A stretch of 64,000 nucleotides of DNA, from positions 528,621 to 592,620 of the forward strand of contig CP006977.1 in assembly GCA_000508305.1 (NCBI GenBank), given 5' to 3'. The stretch comes from Sulfolobus acidocaldarius SUSAZ (GTDB lineage: Archaea > Thermoproteota > Thermoprotei_A > Sulfolobales > Sulfolobaceae). The translations under genes and the position numbers were made by a program. Below the pieces are notes generated by a model. It was not told where the DNA came from and searched no databases. It saw nothing but the letters and a program-made list of their open reading frames with translations. The first letter of the stretch is position 1. Each line of letters starts with the position of its first letter. This document shows positions 1 to 40,460 of this stretch, piece after piece.

Positions 1-452
1 AACTAGGAATACAAAAAGATCTACTTACTGATCTATCATACCCATTACCTATAGTAGAAAAACCTTTCGAAAAGATATCTAAGAAATTTAATCTAACAGA
101 ATCGGAAATAGTTGAGTTAATTAAAGAATTAAAAGAGAAAGGGGTAATAAAGGATTATGGAGCCACTGTAAATGGGGAAAGAATAGGAATAGTAGAAAAT
201 GCTATGTTTTTGTTAAATTCTGATGACATAGAGAGCTCTTGCTACAACATAGCTACAAAATTAAAAGAAGCTACTCATGTAGTGCTAAGAGAAGCAGACA
301 AAGAATGGGATTACTTATGCTACGCTATGATACACGCTAGAAATAAGAACCTGATTTTTGAGACAGCAAAAAAAGCAATTGAAATTAGTAATGCAAAAAG
401 CTATATGTTGCTATTTAGTCTGGACAATCTTAAACCGGGTATTGTAATTTAG
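1..452 (+). CDS. Siroheme decarboxylase-like (AhbA/AhbB, Lrp-fold) protein, 5'-truncated by window edge
   Basis: The frame is open from base 3, before the ATG at 204, so the gene enters from outside the window. The visible part has a winged-helix-like half ([17 protein letters not shown], then [22 protein letters not shown]) followed by an Lrp/AsnC-like alpha-beta half. The family-typical tract is seen as [22 protein letters not shown], cut here as [10 protein letters not shown] then [12 protein letters not shown]. Such proteins decarboxylate siroheme to didecarboxysiroheme in the alternative heme pathway of archaea. The heme gene cluster at 40.5-46.2 kb supports this, but AhbA and AhbB cannot be told apart here. 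The 3' end overlaps the convergent pheA by 23 bp. Confidence 0.75.
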
Positions 453-1266
453 ACATAGACCCTTTAATCTTTACTGAAAGAGTTATCTGAGATATTTCCT
501 TTATCGCACTATCTACTTTATCCTCGTCTAATCCTCCCTCAAATTCTACATAAAAATAATATTTCCATGGTTCTACTTTTAATGGTCTAGAATATATCAT
601 TGTAAGATTAATGTTATTTACATAAAATCTTTCTAATACTTTATACAAAGATCCAGGTTTGTGAGGTATAGTAAAGAATATCATCGTCTTTTCTCCAGAT
701 ATTTTAAATCTGTTGGAAATTATTACAAATCTAGTTAAATTTACCCCATTTTCCACATTTTCTAATAAAATATTTAGATTATTTATCTGAGCAGCATACC
801 TTGAACATATTGCAGCAGCATATTTATCTTCTGATGCATATTTTGCTGCAATAGATGTACTCTCGACAGGAATTATATTATGTAAGCCTAATTCCTCTAG
901 TTTTTCTTTGGCTTCTTGAATCGCATGAGGATGAGAATAGACTTTTTTCACATCTTTGATAGAATTTATTGCTTGATTGGAAGCGATTACAAGATTTATG
1001 TTTTTCTCTACTTCATAATTGACATAAATATTCTCGTATCTGAATAAATTGTCTAATGACTCGTGTACTGGACCTTCTTTACTATTTTCGATAGGTACAA
1101 CACCTATACTATTTGAGTTCTGATTAACACTTTTGAAAATTTCTGTTATCGTTCTTACGGCTATTTTTTCTCCACTAAAACTTTCTGCTACCTCATACGA
1201 AAAACTACCTTTAGGACCTAGATAGTAAATTCCATTTGGATCAACACTCTGAGTGAAGTTTGGTAT
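430..1266 (-). CDS. pheA: Prephenate dehydratase, with no canonical start codon
   Basis: It converts prephenate to phenylpyruvate in phenylalanine synthesis. From the N-terminus the frame reads [10 protein letters not shown], then [18 protein letters not shown] (both family signatures), the catalytic TRF motif in NLTRFVII, and a C-terminal ACT domain ([13 protein letters not shown], with SRP in YSRPLK) for feedback control. The first GTG (951) would delete about 100 conserved residues. Between the in-frame stop at 1279-1281 and 951 there is no ATG, GTG or TTG. An ATT at 1230-1228 sits exactly where Met is expected (x-YYLGP), and an ATA lies at 1266-1264. The listed end uses the ATA; the true start is unresolved. 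The gene follows ilvA by a few bases. Confidence 0.82.
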
Positions 1267-1273
1267 AAAAACT

Positions 1274-2515
1274 TTACTCTACCAAGGTTGCTTCAATACC
1301 GTCTAATGCCAACGAATATAGAAATTCTGATAAACTTTCACTAACAGGGATCTCAAATACCACATGGATTTTCGTGAAACCAGGCTTAACATCAGTACTC
1401 ATTCTATCATGAATTACGTCAATTACATTCCCTCTAATTTGTGCTACCCTACTTAATACTCTATTTAAATAACCAGGTTTATCTGGAACTAATACTTTAA
1501 CTTTCACTACTCTTTTAGATTTGAAGAGCATTCTATCTATAATCCTAGCAAGCAATGACATGTCTATATTTCCTCCACTAATTATTGGAATTACCTTTTT
1601 ACCATAGCCTACCTTTATCTTTCCTGAGATAATCGCAGCAACACTTGCAGCCCCAGCGCCCTCCGCTATGGTTTTATTTCTTTCTAATAGATATAGTATT
1701 GCGTTGGCTATATCTTCATCATCAACTAAAACTATATCGTCAACTAACTCACTTATCACTTCATAAGTTATCTTTGACGGATTTTTTACTAGAATTCCGT
1801 CAGCTATAGAAAAAGATGGCTCAATTTCTACTAATCTTCCTAACTCTACTGATACCTTCATAGATGGTGATGCAGAAGACTGTACACCTATAACTTTTAG
1901 ATTGTTCCTTTTAGCTTTTAATGCAATAGATATACCAGATATTAGACCCCCTCCTCCTATTGGTACTACAACAACATCAGGTTCTGCTTCCAGTAATTCT
2001 AGTCCCAGAGTTCCTTGACCTAATATTACATTTAAATCATCATATGGATGAACTAAAACAGCATTAGTTTCCTTTATTATCTCTTCAGCTTTTTTCATAC
2101 TTTCATGTAAAAACTTTCCATGAAGAATAACATTAGCTCCATAATTTTTCGTAGCTAAATATTTTGATATAGGAGCAGTTTCAGGCATAACAACAGTAGA
2201 TTTAATCCCTAAGACGCTTGCAGCATATGCTACACCCTGTGCATGATTGCCCGCAGATACTGCTATTACTCCTCTTTCTCTTTCAGCTTGCGAAAGGCTA
2301 ATTAGTTTAGAGAATGCACCTCTTACTTTAAATGAACCAGTCTTTTGCAAATTCTCCATCTTAAGATAAACTTTAGCTCCTGCAATATTAGAAAACGTGG
2401 AAGAATAATCTAGTGGAGTTTTATGAATATATTGTTTTATTGATTCATGAACTTTAACTATTTGATCAAAATAATTAAGATAGCTCATCAGGAAAACCCC
2501 TGCTCTCTTCATCAC
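1274..2515 (-). CDS. ilvA: Threonine dehydratase, PLP-dependent, with ACT domain
   Basis: It deaminates L-threonine to 2-oxobutanoate for isoleucine synthesis. The PLP lysine lies in [10 protein letters not shown] near residue 60, the phosphate-binding glycine loop is [10 protein letters not shown] near residue 185, and the last ~80 residues form an ACT domain ([19 protein letters not shown]). The 413-residue length fits the TdcB-like, ACT-containing archaeal and bacterial form. The first ATG abuts the stop of the HIT gene (2516). A second ATG nine codons in (MSYLNYF, 2488) looks more family-like. pheA follows directly, so the two amino-acid genes are probably cotranscribed and translationally coupled. 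Confidence 0.9.
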
Positions 2516-14129: not shown

Positions 14130-14381
14130 ATGGCTTCGGCTATAGTTCTAATTAACACTGATGCAGGTGGAGAAGAAGAGGTTTTTGAAAAACTTAAAAG
14201 TCTGAATGAAGTGACAGAAGTCCACATAGTATACGGCGTTTATGATATTGTAGCTAAAATAGAAGCTGATACGTTAGATAAGCTGAAGGATTTTGTGACA
14301 AATACAGTCAGAAAGTTACCTAGGGTGAGATCAACATTAACAATGATAGTGGTAGAGGGAAAGAGTCTAGTAAAGAAGTAA
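14130..14381 (+). CDS. Stand-alone RAM (Lrp/AsnC ligand-binding) domain protein
   Basis: The protein is a single alpha-beta RAM domain (ASAIVLINTDAGGEEEVFEK, VHIVYGVYDIVAKIEA, VRSTLTMIVVE) without the usual DNA-binding helix-turn-helix. Such stand-alone domains form octamers and bind amino acids in other archaea. I prefer the ATG at 14130; a TTG at 14118 would add four residues. The stop lies inside the start region of tiaS, which reads in the -1 frame, so the two are coupled. Confidence 0.85.
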   Translation: MASAIVLINTDAGGEEEVFEKLKSLNEVTEVHIVYGVYDIVAKIEADTLDKLKDFVTNTVRKLPRVRSTLTMIVVEGKSLVKK

Positions 14382-15685
14382 AATATATATTAGGAATAGA
14401 CGATCATGACTCACCTGAAGCAGGCTGTACTACGCATTTTTCAGCACTGTTAATTAAACATTTAATCAAGGATAAGAACTTAAAGATTCTTGATTTGCCC
14501 TATTTGATTAGGTTAAATCCAAATATTCCCTGGAAAACTAGAGGAAATGCAAGTATCAAAATCATATTATCCAGTGAAAAAAACCTTGAAGAGTTAGCAG
14601 AAATAATATGGTCCGAGAGTACAGATTACGTTGAAAAAGTATCAAAAGCAATGAAGTATAATAGGAAGCCTGGTCTAGCAATAATAAAGAAAGATGACTA
14701 TGAAGAATGCAGAAATTTTTTGTACAACTTTTATCAAAAAGCTGTAAAGGATATAGTTCCTTTCGACTATACCATAAGAATCTCAAAGAAATGTAATGTA
14801 CTTACAAAGGGCGATAGGGGAATAATAGGGAGTATTGCTGCAATAGGCTATTTGCCAATGGGGGGGTTCACATACGAACTTATTACTTATAGGCATGATA
14901 CCTCTAGCTATAGAATTGTGGATGTAAATAGTGTGATAAAATTTGAGGAAAGAAATTTTCCTAAAACGTTTAATAATTTTGATTACATCAAGAAAAGGTT
15001 ACTTATCACACCTCAAGGAAAAGACCCTATATTATATGGTGTTAGAGGAAATACTCTCTCAGTTATGTTAGAGGCGTTGAAAGAGATAAGAAGTTCTAAT
15101 AACGTTGAACTAGCTATGATATACAAGACTAATCAGGGATCAGATGCACATATTAGTAATGATGATGAAGAGTATTACTACAGAACAATAAAGAAAAAAA
15201 TTAAAGTTAAAGAGGGAATAATTCTAGAGGGAGGAGACGTCTTATTACGTTCGGATGAAGGAGAAATAGTTATCTTTTACAAGGAAACTGGGGAGTTAAA
15301 TTTAGCTTCAAAATTCCTTATGAATGGCGACGAGATAGAGATTATTGCCACAGTCAGACCTTCAGATAAATATGGGAAAATTTTCGAGGCAGAGAGAATG
15401 AGAGTTTTATCATTAAACTACTACGAATATAGTAACCCTAAATGCCCTAAATGCCATAGATCAGCAACTTCTTTAGGAGTTAAGAAAGGGTATAAGTGTA
15501 AAAAATGTGGCTATGAATTTAACGCGGAAAAGGTTGCAATAGAGATTCCTAGGTTTTTGTTAAAAGATGAATACCAATCTAGATATCACAGGCATTTAAC
15601 TAGGCCGATATATTTGGAGCTTCAGACACATGAAGATTTAGATTTAATCAAGTTAGAAAATATTCTTAATATGTTGATATCTTAG
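14378..15685 (+). CDS. tiaS: tRNA(Ile2) 2-agmatinylcytidine synthetase TiaS, no canonical start
   Basis: TiaS modifies C34 of tRNA-Ile(CAU) with agmatine so that it reads AUA. The kinase-like N-terminus KYILGIDDHDSPEAGCTTHF is present, but only upstream of the first TTG (14495). An OB-like region and a C-terminal zinc ribbon (CPKCHR...CKKCGYEF, near residue 350) follow. The frame is open from 14324 (after TAG 14321-14323) with no ATG, GTG or TTG before GIDD. Met is expected near GTA 14378 or ATA 14387. The region overlaps the stop of the RAM gene. The given start is the best guess. Confidence 0.85.
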   Translation, partial: VKYILGIDDHDSPEAGCTTHFSALLIKHLIKDKNLKILDLPYLIRLNPNIPWKTRGNASIKIILSSEKNLEELAEIIWSESTDYVEKVSKAMKYNRKPGLAIIKKDDYEECRNFLYNFYQKAVKDIVPFDYTIRISKKCNVLTKGDRGIIGSIAAIGYLPMGGFTYELITYRHDTSSYRIVDVNSVIKFEERNFPKTFNNFDYIKKRLLITPQGKDPILYGVRGNTLSVMLEALKEIRSSNNVELAMIYKTNQGSDAHISNDDEEYYYRTIKKKIKVKEGIILEGGDVLLRSDEGEIVIFYKETGELNLASKFLMNGDEIEIIATVRPSDKYGKIFEAERMRVLSLNYYEYSNPKCPKCHRSATSLGVKKGYKCKKCGYEFNAEKVAIEIPRFLLKDEYQSRYHRHLTRPIYLELQTHEDLDLIKLENILNMLIS

Positions 15686-28574: not shown

Positions 28575-28713
<139 letters not shown>

Positions 28714-36841: not shown

Positions 36842-39169
<2,328 letters not shown>

Positions 39170-39173
39170 GATT

Positions 39174-39398
39174 ATGTCTTGGAGGGAAATTCCTTTACAT
39201 TATGTAATCCTAGAAAGAGTGAAGAAACGTTCGCCTGTGACTGATCAAGAACTATATCAGGAAGTTAAAAAAAGCGTAGGATATGAAGTTTCTTTTTCTG
39301 ATTTTTTAAAGGCTTTAATGAAGCTTGAAATGAGAGGATATTTACATGTCGTATTAGTTAAGGAGAATGTTAGAATGGTTAGTATTTCTCAAGGGTGA
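39174..39398 (+). CDS. Small winged-helix-like protein
   Basis: Seventy-four residues with the order of a winged helix: HYVILERVKKRSPVTDQELY, FSDFLKALMKLEMRGYLHVV, VRMVSISQG. It probably binds nucleic acid or a protein partner. It lies four bases after cdc48. Its TGA stop is followed in the same frame, after two codons, by the FEN-1 N-terminus, so the two genes are separated only by the stop. Confidence 0.75.
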   Translation: MSWREIPLHYVILERVKKRSPVTDQELYQEVKKSVGYEVSFSDFLKALMKLEMRGYLHVVLVKENVRMVSISQG

Positions 39399-39404
39399 TT
39401 TATA

Positions 39405-40460
39405 ATAGGTGTAGATTTAGGCGAAATAGTTGAAGATGTTAAGAGAGAGATTAACTTAAATGAGATGAAAGGAAAGAAAATTAGTATAGATGCTTACAAC
39501 ACAATTTATCAGTTTTTAGCTGCAATAAGACAGCCTGATGGGACACCTTTAATTGACAGTAAAGGCAGAATAACGAGCCATTTAAATGGGCTATTTTATA
39601 GGACTATAAGCATAATAGAAAGTGGAATAATCCCCATTTTTGTATTTGATGGAAAGCCACCTGAAAAAAAGAGTGAAGAAATTGAAAGAAGGAAAAGAGC
39701 TAAGGAGGAGGCAGAAAAGAAATTAGAGAAAGCTAAGTTAGAGGGGGAGTATAGAGAAATTAGAAAATATGCGCAGGCTGCTGTTAGATTAAGCAATGAA
39801 ATGGTAGAGGAAAGTAAAAAACTATTAGATGCTATGGGTATACCTGTAGTTCAAGCTCCAGGAGAAGGAGAGGCTGAGGCAGCTTATATAAATTCAATTG
39901 ATCTCTCCTGGGCTGCTGCCAGCCAAGATTATGATTCCTTATTATTTGGCGCTAAAAGATTAGTCAGAAACATAACAATTTCAGGTAAAAGAAAGCTTCC
40001 AAATAAGGATGTTTATGTAGAAATAAAGCCTGAGTTGATAGAACTAGAGAGTTTATTAAAAAAACTCGGCATTAGTAGAGAACAGTTAATAGACATCGCG
40101 ATTCTTATAGGCACAGATTACAATCCAGACGGAGTTAAAGGAGTTGGTGTAAAGACGGCATTAAGGATTATAAAGAAATATAATAATATCGAGAACGCAA
40201 TAGAAAAAGGCGAAATTCAATTATCTAAAATAAACTTTGATATACGAGAGATAAGAAAATTATTCATTACACCTGACGTTAAAAAGCCTACTGAACGACT
40301 AGAATTAGCAGAATGTGATGAGAGGGAAATAGTAGAACTTTTGGTTAAAAATCATGATTTTAATGAAGATCGTGTAAATAACGGAATAGAGAGATTAAAG
40401 AAGGCTATAAAAGAAGCTAAGTCAGTCGAAAAACAGACAGGTCTTGATCAGTGGTTTTAA
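39405..40460 (+). CDS. fen: Flap endonuclease 1, apparent AUA start
   Basis: It removes 5' flaps in Okazaki fragment processing and repair. The XPG N-region starts GVDLGEIVEDVKREINLNEM and continues with ISIDAYNTIYQFLAAIRQP; the I-region is APGEGEAEAAYINSI and ASQDYDSLLFGAKR; the helix-hairpin-helix is GTDYNPDGVKGVGVKTAL; and the PCNA-interacting tail is QTGLDQWF. The first ATG (39465) would remove 20 conserved residues. The family Met1 (MGVDL) coincides with an ATA at 39405-39407, a few bases after the upstream TGA. No ATG, GTG or TTG is available in frame. Confidence 0.93.
   Translation: MGVDLGEIVEDVKREINLNEMKGKKISIDAYNTIYQFLAAIRQPDGTPLIDSKGRITSHLNGLFYRTISIIESGIIPIFVFDGKPPEKKSEEIERRKRAKEEAEKKLEKAKLEGEYREIRKYAQAAVRLSNEMVEESKKLLDAMGIPVVQAPGEGEAEAAYINSIDLSWAAASQDYDSLLFGAKRLVRNITISGKRKLPNKDVYVEIKPELIELESLLKKLGISREQLIDIAILIGTDYNPDGVKGVGVKTALRIIKKYNNIENAIEKGEIQLSKINFDIREIRKLFITPDVKKPTERLELAECDEREIVELLVKNHDFNEDRVNNGIERLKKAIKEAKSVEKQTGLDQWF

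Follow-up and report, generated by a model that had tools for sequence, protein, structure and literature searches.

An AUA, AUC, or AUU codon as the likely translation start of the flap endonuclease gene fen1 in the Sulfolobaceae

Introduction

Where does the translation of flap endonuclease 1 (FEN-1) begin in Sulfolobus acidocaldarius? The question is raised by a stretch of 64,000 nucleotides from strain SUSAZ (contig CP006977.1, positions 528,621 to 592,620; the window in the following), in which the fen1 gene carries an ATA at the position where the protein family begins with methionine. Archaeal translation starts are assumed to be AUG, GUG, or UUG, and AUA is thought to be disfavored by archaeal ribosomes. 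A preliminary description of the locus had proposed two routes to the protein, either initiation at AUA after termination of the upstream gene, or readthrough of an in-frame TGA that would give a fusion protein. From the comparison of this locus among Sulfolobaceae, we conclude that fen1 is most likely translated from AUA, or in a few species from AUC or AUU, by means of a Shine-Dalgarno (SD) motif and with a likely coupling to upstream termination, a reading to which we assign a probability of roughly 0.82.

The fen1 reading frame

The features at the start of fen1 are as follows:

39405 to 40460, plus strand: fen1, 351 amino acids, M(AUA)GVDLGEIV..., archaeal flap endonuclease 1, with matches to TIGR03674, XPG_N, XPG_I, and 2IZO
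39405 to 39407, plus strand: predicted AUA start codon of fen1, aligned with the methionine of MGVDL
39396 to 39398, plus strand: TGA that terminates the small gene upstream and belongs to the SD motif; it shares the frame of fen1
39393 to 39399, plus strand: SD motif GGGTGAT, complementary to the 16S rRNA 3' end; its core GGTGA (39394 to 39398) ends 6 nt before AUA
39465 to 39467, plus strand: ATG, Met21, first canonical in-frame codon of fen1, judged not to be the start

The bases at the junction are those given in the preliminary description: TGA (39396-39398) is followed by TTT (39399-39401), ATA (39402-39404), ATA (39405-39407), and then by GGT GTA GAT TTA. The open frame 39399-40460 contains no ATG, GTG, or TTG until ATG 39465, which is codon 21 of fen1. 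The product matched TIGR03674, the NCBIfam profile of archaeal FEN-1, with 450 bits against a cutoff of 352 and in full length (profile positions 1-338), including the N-terminal MGV. Position 1 of the profile falls on residue 3 of the open frame, and thus on ATA 39405, which bears out the earlier placement of the family start MGVDL on this codon. The Pfam domains XPG_N and XPG_I were found, the conserved acidic and XPG motifs IDAYN, FDGKPP, EGEAEAAY, SQDYD, and GTDYNPDG are all present, and the C-terminal PCNA-binding motif QxxLxxWF occurs as QTGLDQWF. The nearest solved structure is 2IZO (E = 4.7e-163), which we take to be FEN-1 of S. solfataricus; its construct starts at about residue 8-9 of the FEN-1 numbering used here and does not include the conserved MGVDL.

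Census of the start codon

Among 31 Sulfolobaceae genomes, fen1 was found in 29 (28/28 of those with a completeness of at least 90%), representing 10 genera. The codon at the methionine position is AUH (H being A, C, or U) in all 29 loci, namely ATA in 25, ATC in three (L013, L021, and L023), and ATT in one (L018), and a canonical ATG, GTG, or TTG occurs in 0/29. An in-frame stop stands 0 to 2 codons before AUH in every one of these loci, with a TGA that directly abuts ATC in L021, so that the residues GVDL can only be translated from AUH, barring readthrough or frameshifting. Codons 2-5, which encode GVDL, vary synonymously (GGA/GGC/GGT/GGG and TTA/CTT/CTC/CTA) and are under purifying selection, with a ratio of nonsynonymous to synonymous changes (pN/pS) of 0.13 for the family as a whole and 0.045 within genera.

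In the same order outside the family, 28/29 genomes have ATG, GTG, or TTG and one has CTG (L051); for two of these loci (L057 and L058), the methionine codon was taken two codons upstream of the printed one. In a second archaeal collection of 80 loci, the sole non-canonical case was Metallosphaera, itself a member of the Sulfolobaceae. Of the other 79, 78 are canonical and the remaining one (L092) was misparsed by the search motif; four loci of this collection that lack the search motif show the methionine in the translation. Combined, the start is canonical in 106/108 archaeal loci outside the Sulfolobaceae, with one CTG and one unparsed locus, whereby the two outgroup sets overlap in some records. 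As AUH is found in all loci of the family and canonical codons in the outgroups, the AUH codon of fen1 is a single shared character of the Sulfolobaceae. The aIF1 gene, which was read in the same way as a control, has an in-frame ATG at the homologous place in 30/30 genomes.

The Shine-Dalgarno motif and the upstream stop

The gene that precedes fen1 is conserved in position:

39174 to 39398, plus strand: conserved open reading frame of 74 amino acids, directly before fen1 in 29/29 Sulfolobaceae

At its 3' end, the 16S rRNA encoded in this genome reads GGATCACCTCA, which is complementary to GGTGA and makes this core a good SD motif. GGTGA is found at exactly -11 to -7, and thus with a 6 nt spacing to AUH, in 26/29 species, compared to a background of 0.0012 per base, and at least five SD bases precede the fen1 start in 27/29. 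In the 26 species with GGTGA, a TGA lies at -9 in the fen1 frame, and the TGA that had been highlighted in the preliminary description is the tail of this motif. GGTGA is retained in the genus of the window despite the changed reading frame of the upstream gene, and SD-N6-AUH is the arrangement common to the family, although AUH alone is shared by all 29 loci.

The small gene does end at TGA 39396-39398 in the frame of fen1, as had been stated, but this relation is confined to the genus of the window, where the TGA of the SD motif itself serves as upstream stop by way of an apparent net length difference of 4 nt; in 27/29 genomes, the stop of the small gene lies in a frame other than that of fen1. 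In 23/29, this stop is a TAG that overlaps the fen1 start (ATAG). In the three ATC species, the overlapping TAG is lost and the upstream gene stops at the next TAG at +7, and in the ATT species, it stops on a TAA that overlaps the start. In all 29 loci, stop and start thus overlap or are at most 10 nt apart, which together with the SD motif corresponds to the geometry of termination-reinitiation. An inspection by eye of the region before AUA for a shared TATA-like element, as would go with an own promoter or a leaderless AUA mRNA, revealed none.

Proposed initiation at AUA and its possible origin

We propose that the initiator Met-tRNA would read AUA, AUC, or AUU despite the mismatch at the third position, and that the ribosome would be positioned by GGUGA, which lies 6 nt upstream, still inside the last codons of the small gene. 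In most species, the UAG stop overlaps the start (A-UAG), and a ribosome that has just terminated would likely be the one that starts fen1 by termination-reinitiation. Of the two routes in the preliminary description, AUA initiation is thus strongly supported, and coupling to upstream termination is probable. It is in line with such a coupling that Crenarchaeota, including Sulfolobus, make ample use of SD motifs at overlapping gene pairs (PMC6728339).

The second residue of FEN-1 is a glycine (GGN). As an AUGA overlap requires an A after the start codon, only NTAG is open to this gene, which for an AUN start means AUA, and AUAG would be the sole four-base stop/start overlap that fits. This constraint, in combination with the overlap, may be how AUA arose. 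The overlap pattern of tiaS described below (ATGA in contrast to ATAA, ATAG, or GTAA) supports the view that the overlap shaped the AUA of fen1. Where the overlap was lost, AUH was kept, which would be consistent with a weak start and a resulting low or coupled FEN-1 output that is tolerated or selected. The weak start seems at least tolerated and perhaps selected, as are those of infC and sigR, which are discussed below.

Several observations weigh against this reading. The species with ATC or ATT and the genus of the window lack the exact ATAG overlap and nevertheless keep AUH, so that the overlap alone is insufficient and was rejected as the sole cause of AUA. Codons 2-22 as a whole have a pN/pS of 0.34 and are thus under weaker constraint than the downstream part with 0.12. 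The sequence is compatible with either methionine or isoleucine at position 1. Finally, the single S. solfataricus gene pair assayed in vitro, which has the adjacent codons UGAGUG, was reported to be uncoupled, according to its citation in PMC6728339, and coupling is thus not assured.

It is also possible, at odds somewhat below even, that the AUA start is real but merely a neutral relic of an ATAG overlap that was fixed early, with an initiation that is efficient enough and without any regulatory role. The choice of the third base would fit this, as ATA/ATC/ATT at the start (86/10/3%) loosely track the internal isoleucine codons (54/14/32%), and so would tiaS, in which AUG became AUA or GUA where the overlapping upstream stop is UAA or UAG. 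However, none of the 29 species, which represent 10 genera, has ATG, even though a single transition would generate it, and the three ATC species and the genus of the window keep AUH without the overlap.

Rejected alternatives: downstream start, readthrough, and frameshifting

That translation begins at a downstream canonical codon (ATG 39465 in the window), with the codons upstream of it untranslated, is very improbable. In its favor, the 2IZO construct, which starts at about residue 8-9, is folded, but the species share no downstream canonical codon. In 21/29 species, the first one lies beyond the catalytic Asp29, and a downstream start would therefore destroy the enzyme there. ATG 39465 has no counterpart in other genera and no usable SD motif (a TGAG abuts it at a spacing of 0), whereas the SD motif stands at AUH, and its use would lose GVDL, which is kept with synonymous change. 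For the window itself, the preliminary description had argued that a start at ATG 39465 would remove residues of the XPG active site region; residues 1-20 would indeed be deleted, but the catalytic aspartate (IDAYN, residue 29) is located downstream and would be kept.

Even less credible is readthrough of TGA 39396, by which the small protein encoded upstream would be fused to FEN-1. It could appeal to the in-frame TGA in the genus of the window, with only two codons between TGA and AUA, but the TGA is explained by the SD motif, the stop of the upstream gene is out of frame with fen1 in 27/29 genomes, and the fen1 frame has stops such as TGA-TAA just upstream. The combination of a same-frame upstream gene with a stop preserved in the relatives, which would be the hallmark of such a fusion, was not found, and this part of the earlier proposal has to be given up as a route for the family.

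A programmed -1 frameshift that would carry ribosomes from the small gene into fen1 is no more plausible than readthrough. Outside the genus of the window, the frame of fen1 is indeed -1 with respect to that of the small gene, but the slip would be confined to the 0 to 2 codons between the stop of the fen1 frame and the upstream stop, the sequences at this place (e.g., GAG AAG GAA TAG and GAT TAT GAA TCG) share no slippery heptamer as judged by eye, and the mechanism is inapplicable in the genus of the window. To obtain a fusion throughout the family, one genus would have to use readthrough and all others -1 frameshifting; as the frame relation to the upstream gene differs between genera, neither can be a route common to the family. 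A sequence error at 39405 can be dismissed, since the same codon class occurs in 29 genomes.

Other genes without a canonical start

We surveyed 400 kb of the genome of the window against 400 kb of another genus, which yielded 187 orthologous pairs without overlaps; some few of them may be spurious frames. Four of the 187 have a conserved N-terminus that begins before the first canonical codon. These are fen1, tiaS, trm56, and a gene for prephenate dehydratase, the last three names being presumptive, as we assigned them by recognizing the sequences. The remaining entries of the survey start at an aligned methionine codon, GTG, or TTG. About 2% of the surveyed genes is thus a fair first estimate for genes without a canonical start, and fen1 is the clearest case of this small class.

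In most of the family, the tiaS-like gene (tRNA-Ile2 agmatidine synthetase; window 14324-15685, plus strand; L180-L207) follows a micro-open reading frame of 10-13 codons (MI[IV][MV]EGKS..KK) whose stop overlaps the tiaS start. This overlap is ATGA in most genera. In three genera, among them that of the window, it is GTAA, ATAA, or ATAG; there, the stop of the micro-frame is TAA or TAG and the start is accordingly GTA or ATA. The trm56-like gene (tRNA C56 2'-O-methyltransferase; L240-L268) is located outside the window at genome positions 481328-481900 on the minus strand. It shows AGGGA-N6-AUH in 22/29 species by pattern, and two more species have ATT as judged by eye (L240, L241), so that trm56 seems to start at ATT, ATA, or ATC after AGGGA-N6 in about 24/29 genomes. 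The exact starts of trm56 and tiaS are less certain than that of fen1. Tentatively, fen1, tiaS, and trm56 may belong to a gene class in which the start is set by its position, through a fixed SD spacing and an overlapping stop, and not by its identity, with a third base that follows the upstream stop (AUGA to AUAA, AUAG, or GUAA); the output of FEN-1 would then depend on upstream termination and on the start-codon fidelity set by aIF1.

The prephenate dehydratase-like gene (window 430-1278, minus strand; L210-L239) has 109 codons without an in-frame ATG, GTG, or TTG, and many family members likewise lack an in-frame canonical codon. Nearly all family members keep an out-of-frame ATG in the nearly wobble-invariant GATCCAAATGGAATTTAYTAT, which opens a short frame (MEFT..stop). 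A frameshift early in the gene or a regulatory element may underlie this pattern.

Neighboring genes

The small gene before fen1 is itself preceded by a further gene on the same strand:

36848 to 39169, plus strand: Cdc48/VCP-like AAA+ ATPase gene, whose translation has two Walker A motifs; it ends 4 nt before the small open reading frame

From this proximity, the Cdc48-like gene, the small open reading frame, and fen1 probably form one operon. The product of the small gene is 74-83 amino acids long among the aligned members and had no match in Pfam or NCBIfam; the term winged helix is only a label of the preliminary description. Its position, directly before fen1 in all 29 genomes and behind the Cdc48-like gene in the window, suggests a possible functional link.

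Elsewhere in the window, at 28576-28672 on the minus strand, ARAGORN called a tRNA of 97 bases that has a four-base anticodon (ttta) and was not assigned to a type; it is perhaps intron-containing or degenerate.

Discussion

The family-wide start, its AUC and AUU variants, and the SD motif at a fixed spacing were not visible from the window alone. Our data indicate that a core replication and repair nuclease keeps AUA, AUC, or AUU in every family member in which it was found, and that gene finders restricted to canonical codons miss the true N-terminus of FEN-1 in all these genomes. The fen1 gene is thereby a natural substrate for studies of start fidelity in genetically tractable organisms (S. 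acidocaldarius and S. islandicus), with respect to aIF1, SD pairing, and termination-reinitiation. In the openly licensed literature on AUA or further non-canonical start codons in Sulfolobus and in archaea at large, we found nothing on fen1; its AUA start may be mentioned in other papers or in protein database entries.

Two of the closest parallels are bacterial. The infC gene, which encodes IF3, starts with AUU in Escherichia coli and with AUC in Streptomyces (PMC5472188). The fen1 gene resembles it in having AUH in place of AUG, conserved at the homologous methionine position across a clade (29/29 loci), and in the proposed weakness of the start for the initiator tRNA. The two differ in that the product of infC, a start-fidelity factor, regulates its own gene, whereas FEN-1 is not an initiation factor. 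An infC-like loop via the own start of the archaeal fidelity factor was also rejected, as the aIF1 gene is ATG-started, as mentioned above. The sigR gene of Streptomyces starts with GTC, is repressed by IF3, and was misannotated in all available genomes (PMC5472188). It shares with fen1 a conserved non-canonical start, in the case of sigR within a genus, but it is bacterial, uses GTC, and has been demonstrated experimentally, whereas the start of fen1 is predicted from the sequence.

Stop-start overlaps of the ATGA or NTGA type with termination-reinitiation are frequent among prokaryotes, archaea included (Huber et al., 2019, PMC6728339; reviewed in PMC12548453). In fen1, we likewise find a four-base overlap of stop and start with the SD motif inside the upstream gene. 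However, the known motif is NTG+A, whereas the overlap is ATA+G in fen1 and ATAA or GTAA in tiaS, so that in these genes, the start codon itself is non-canonical.
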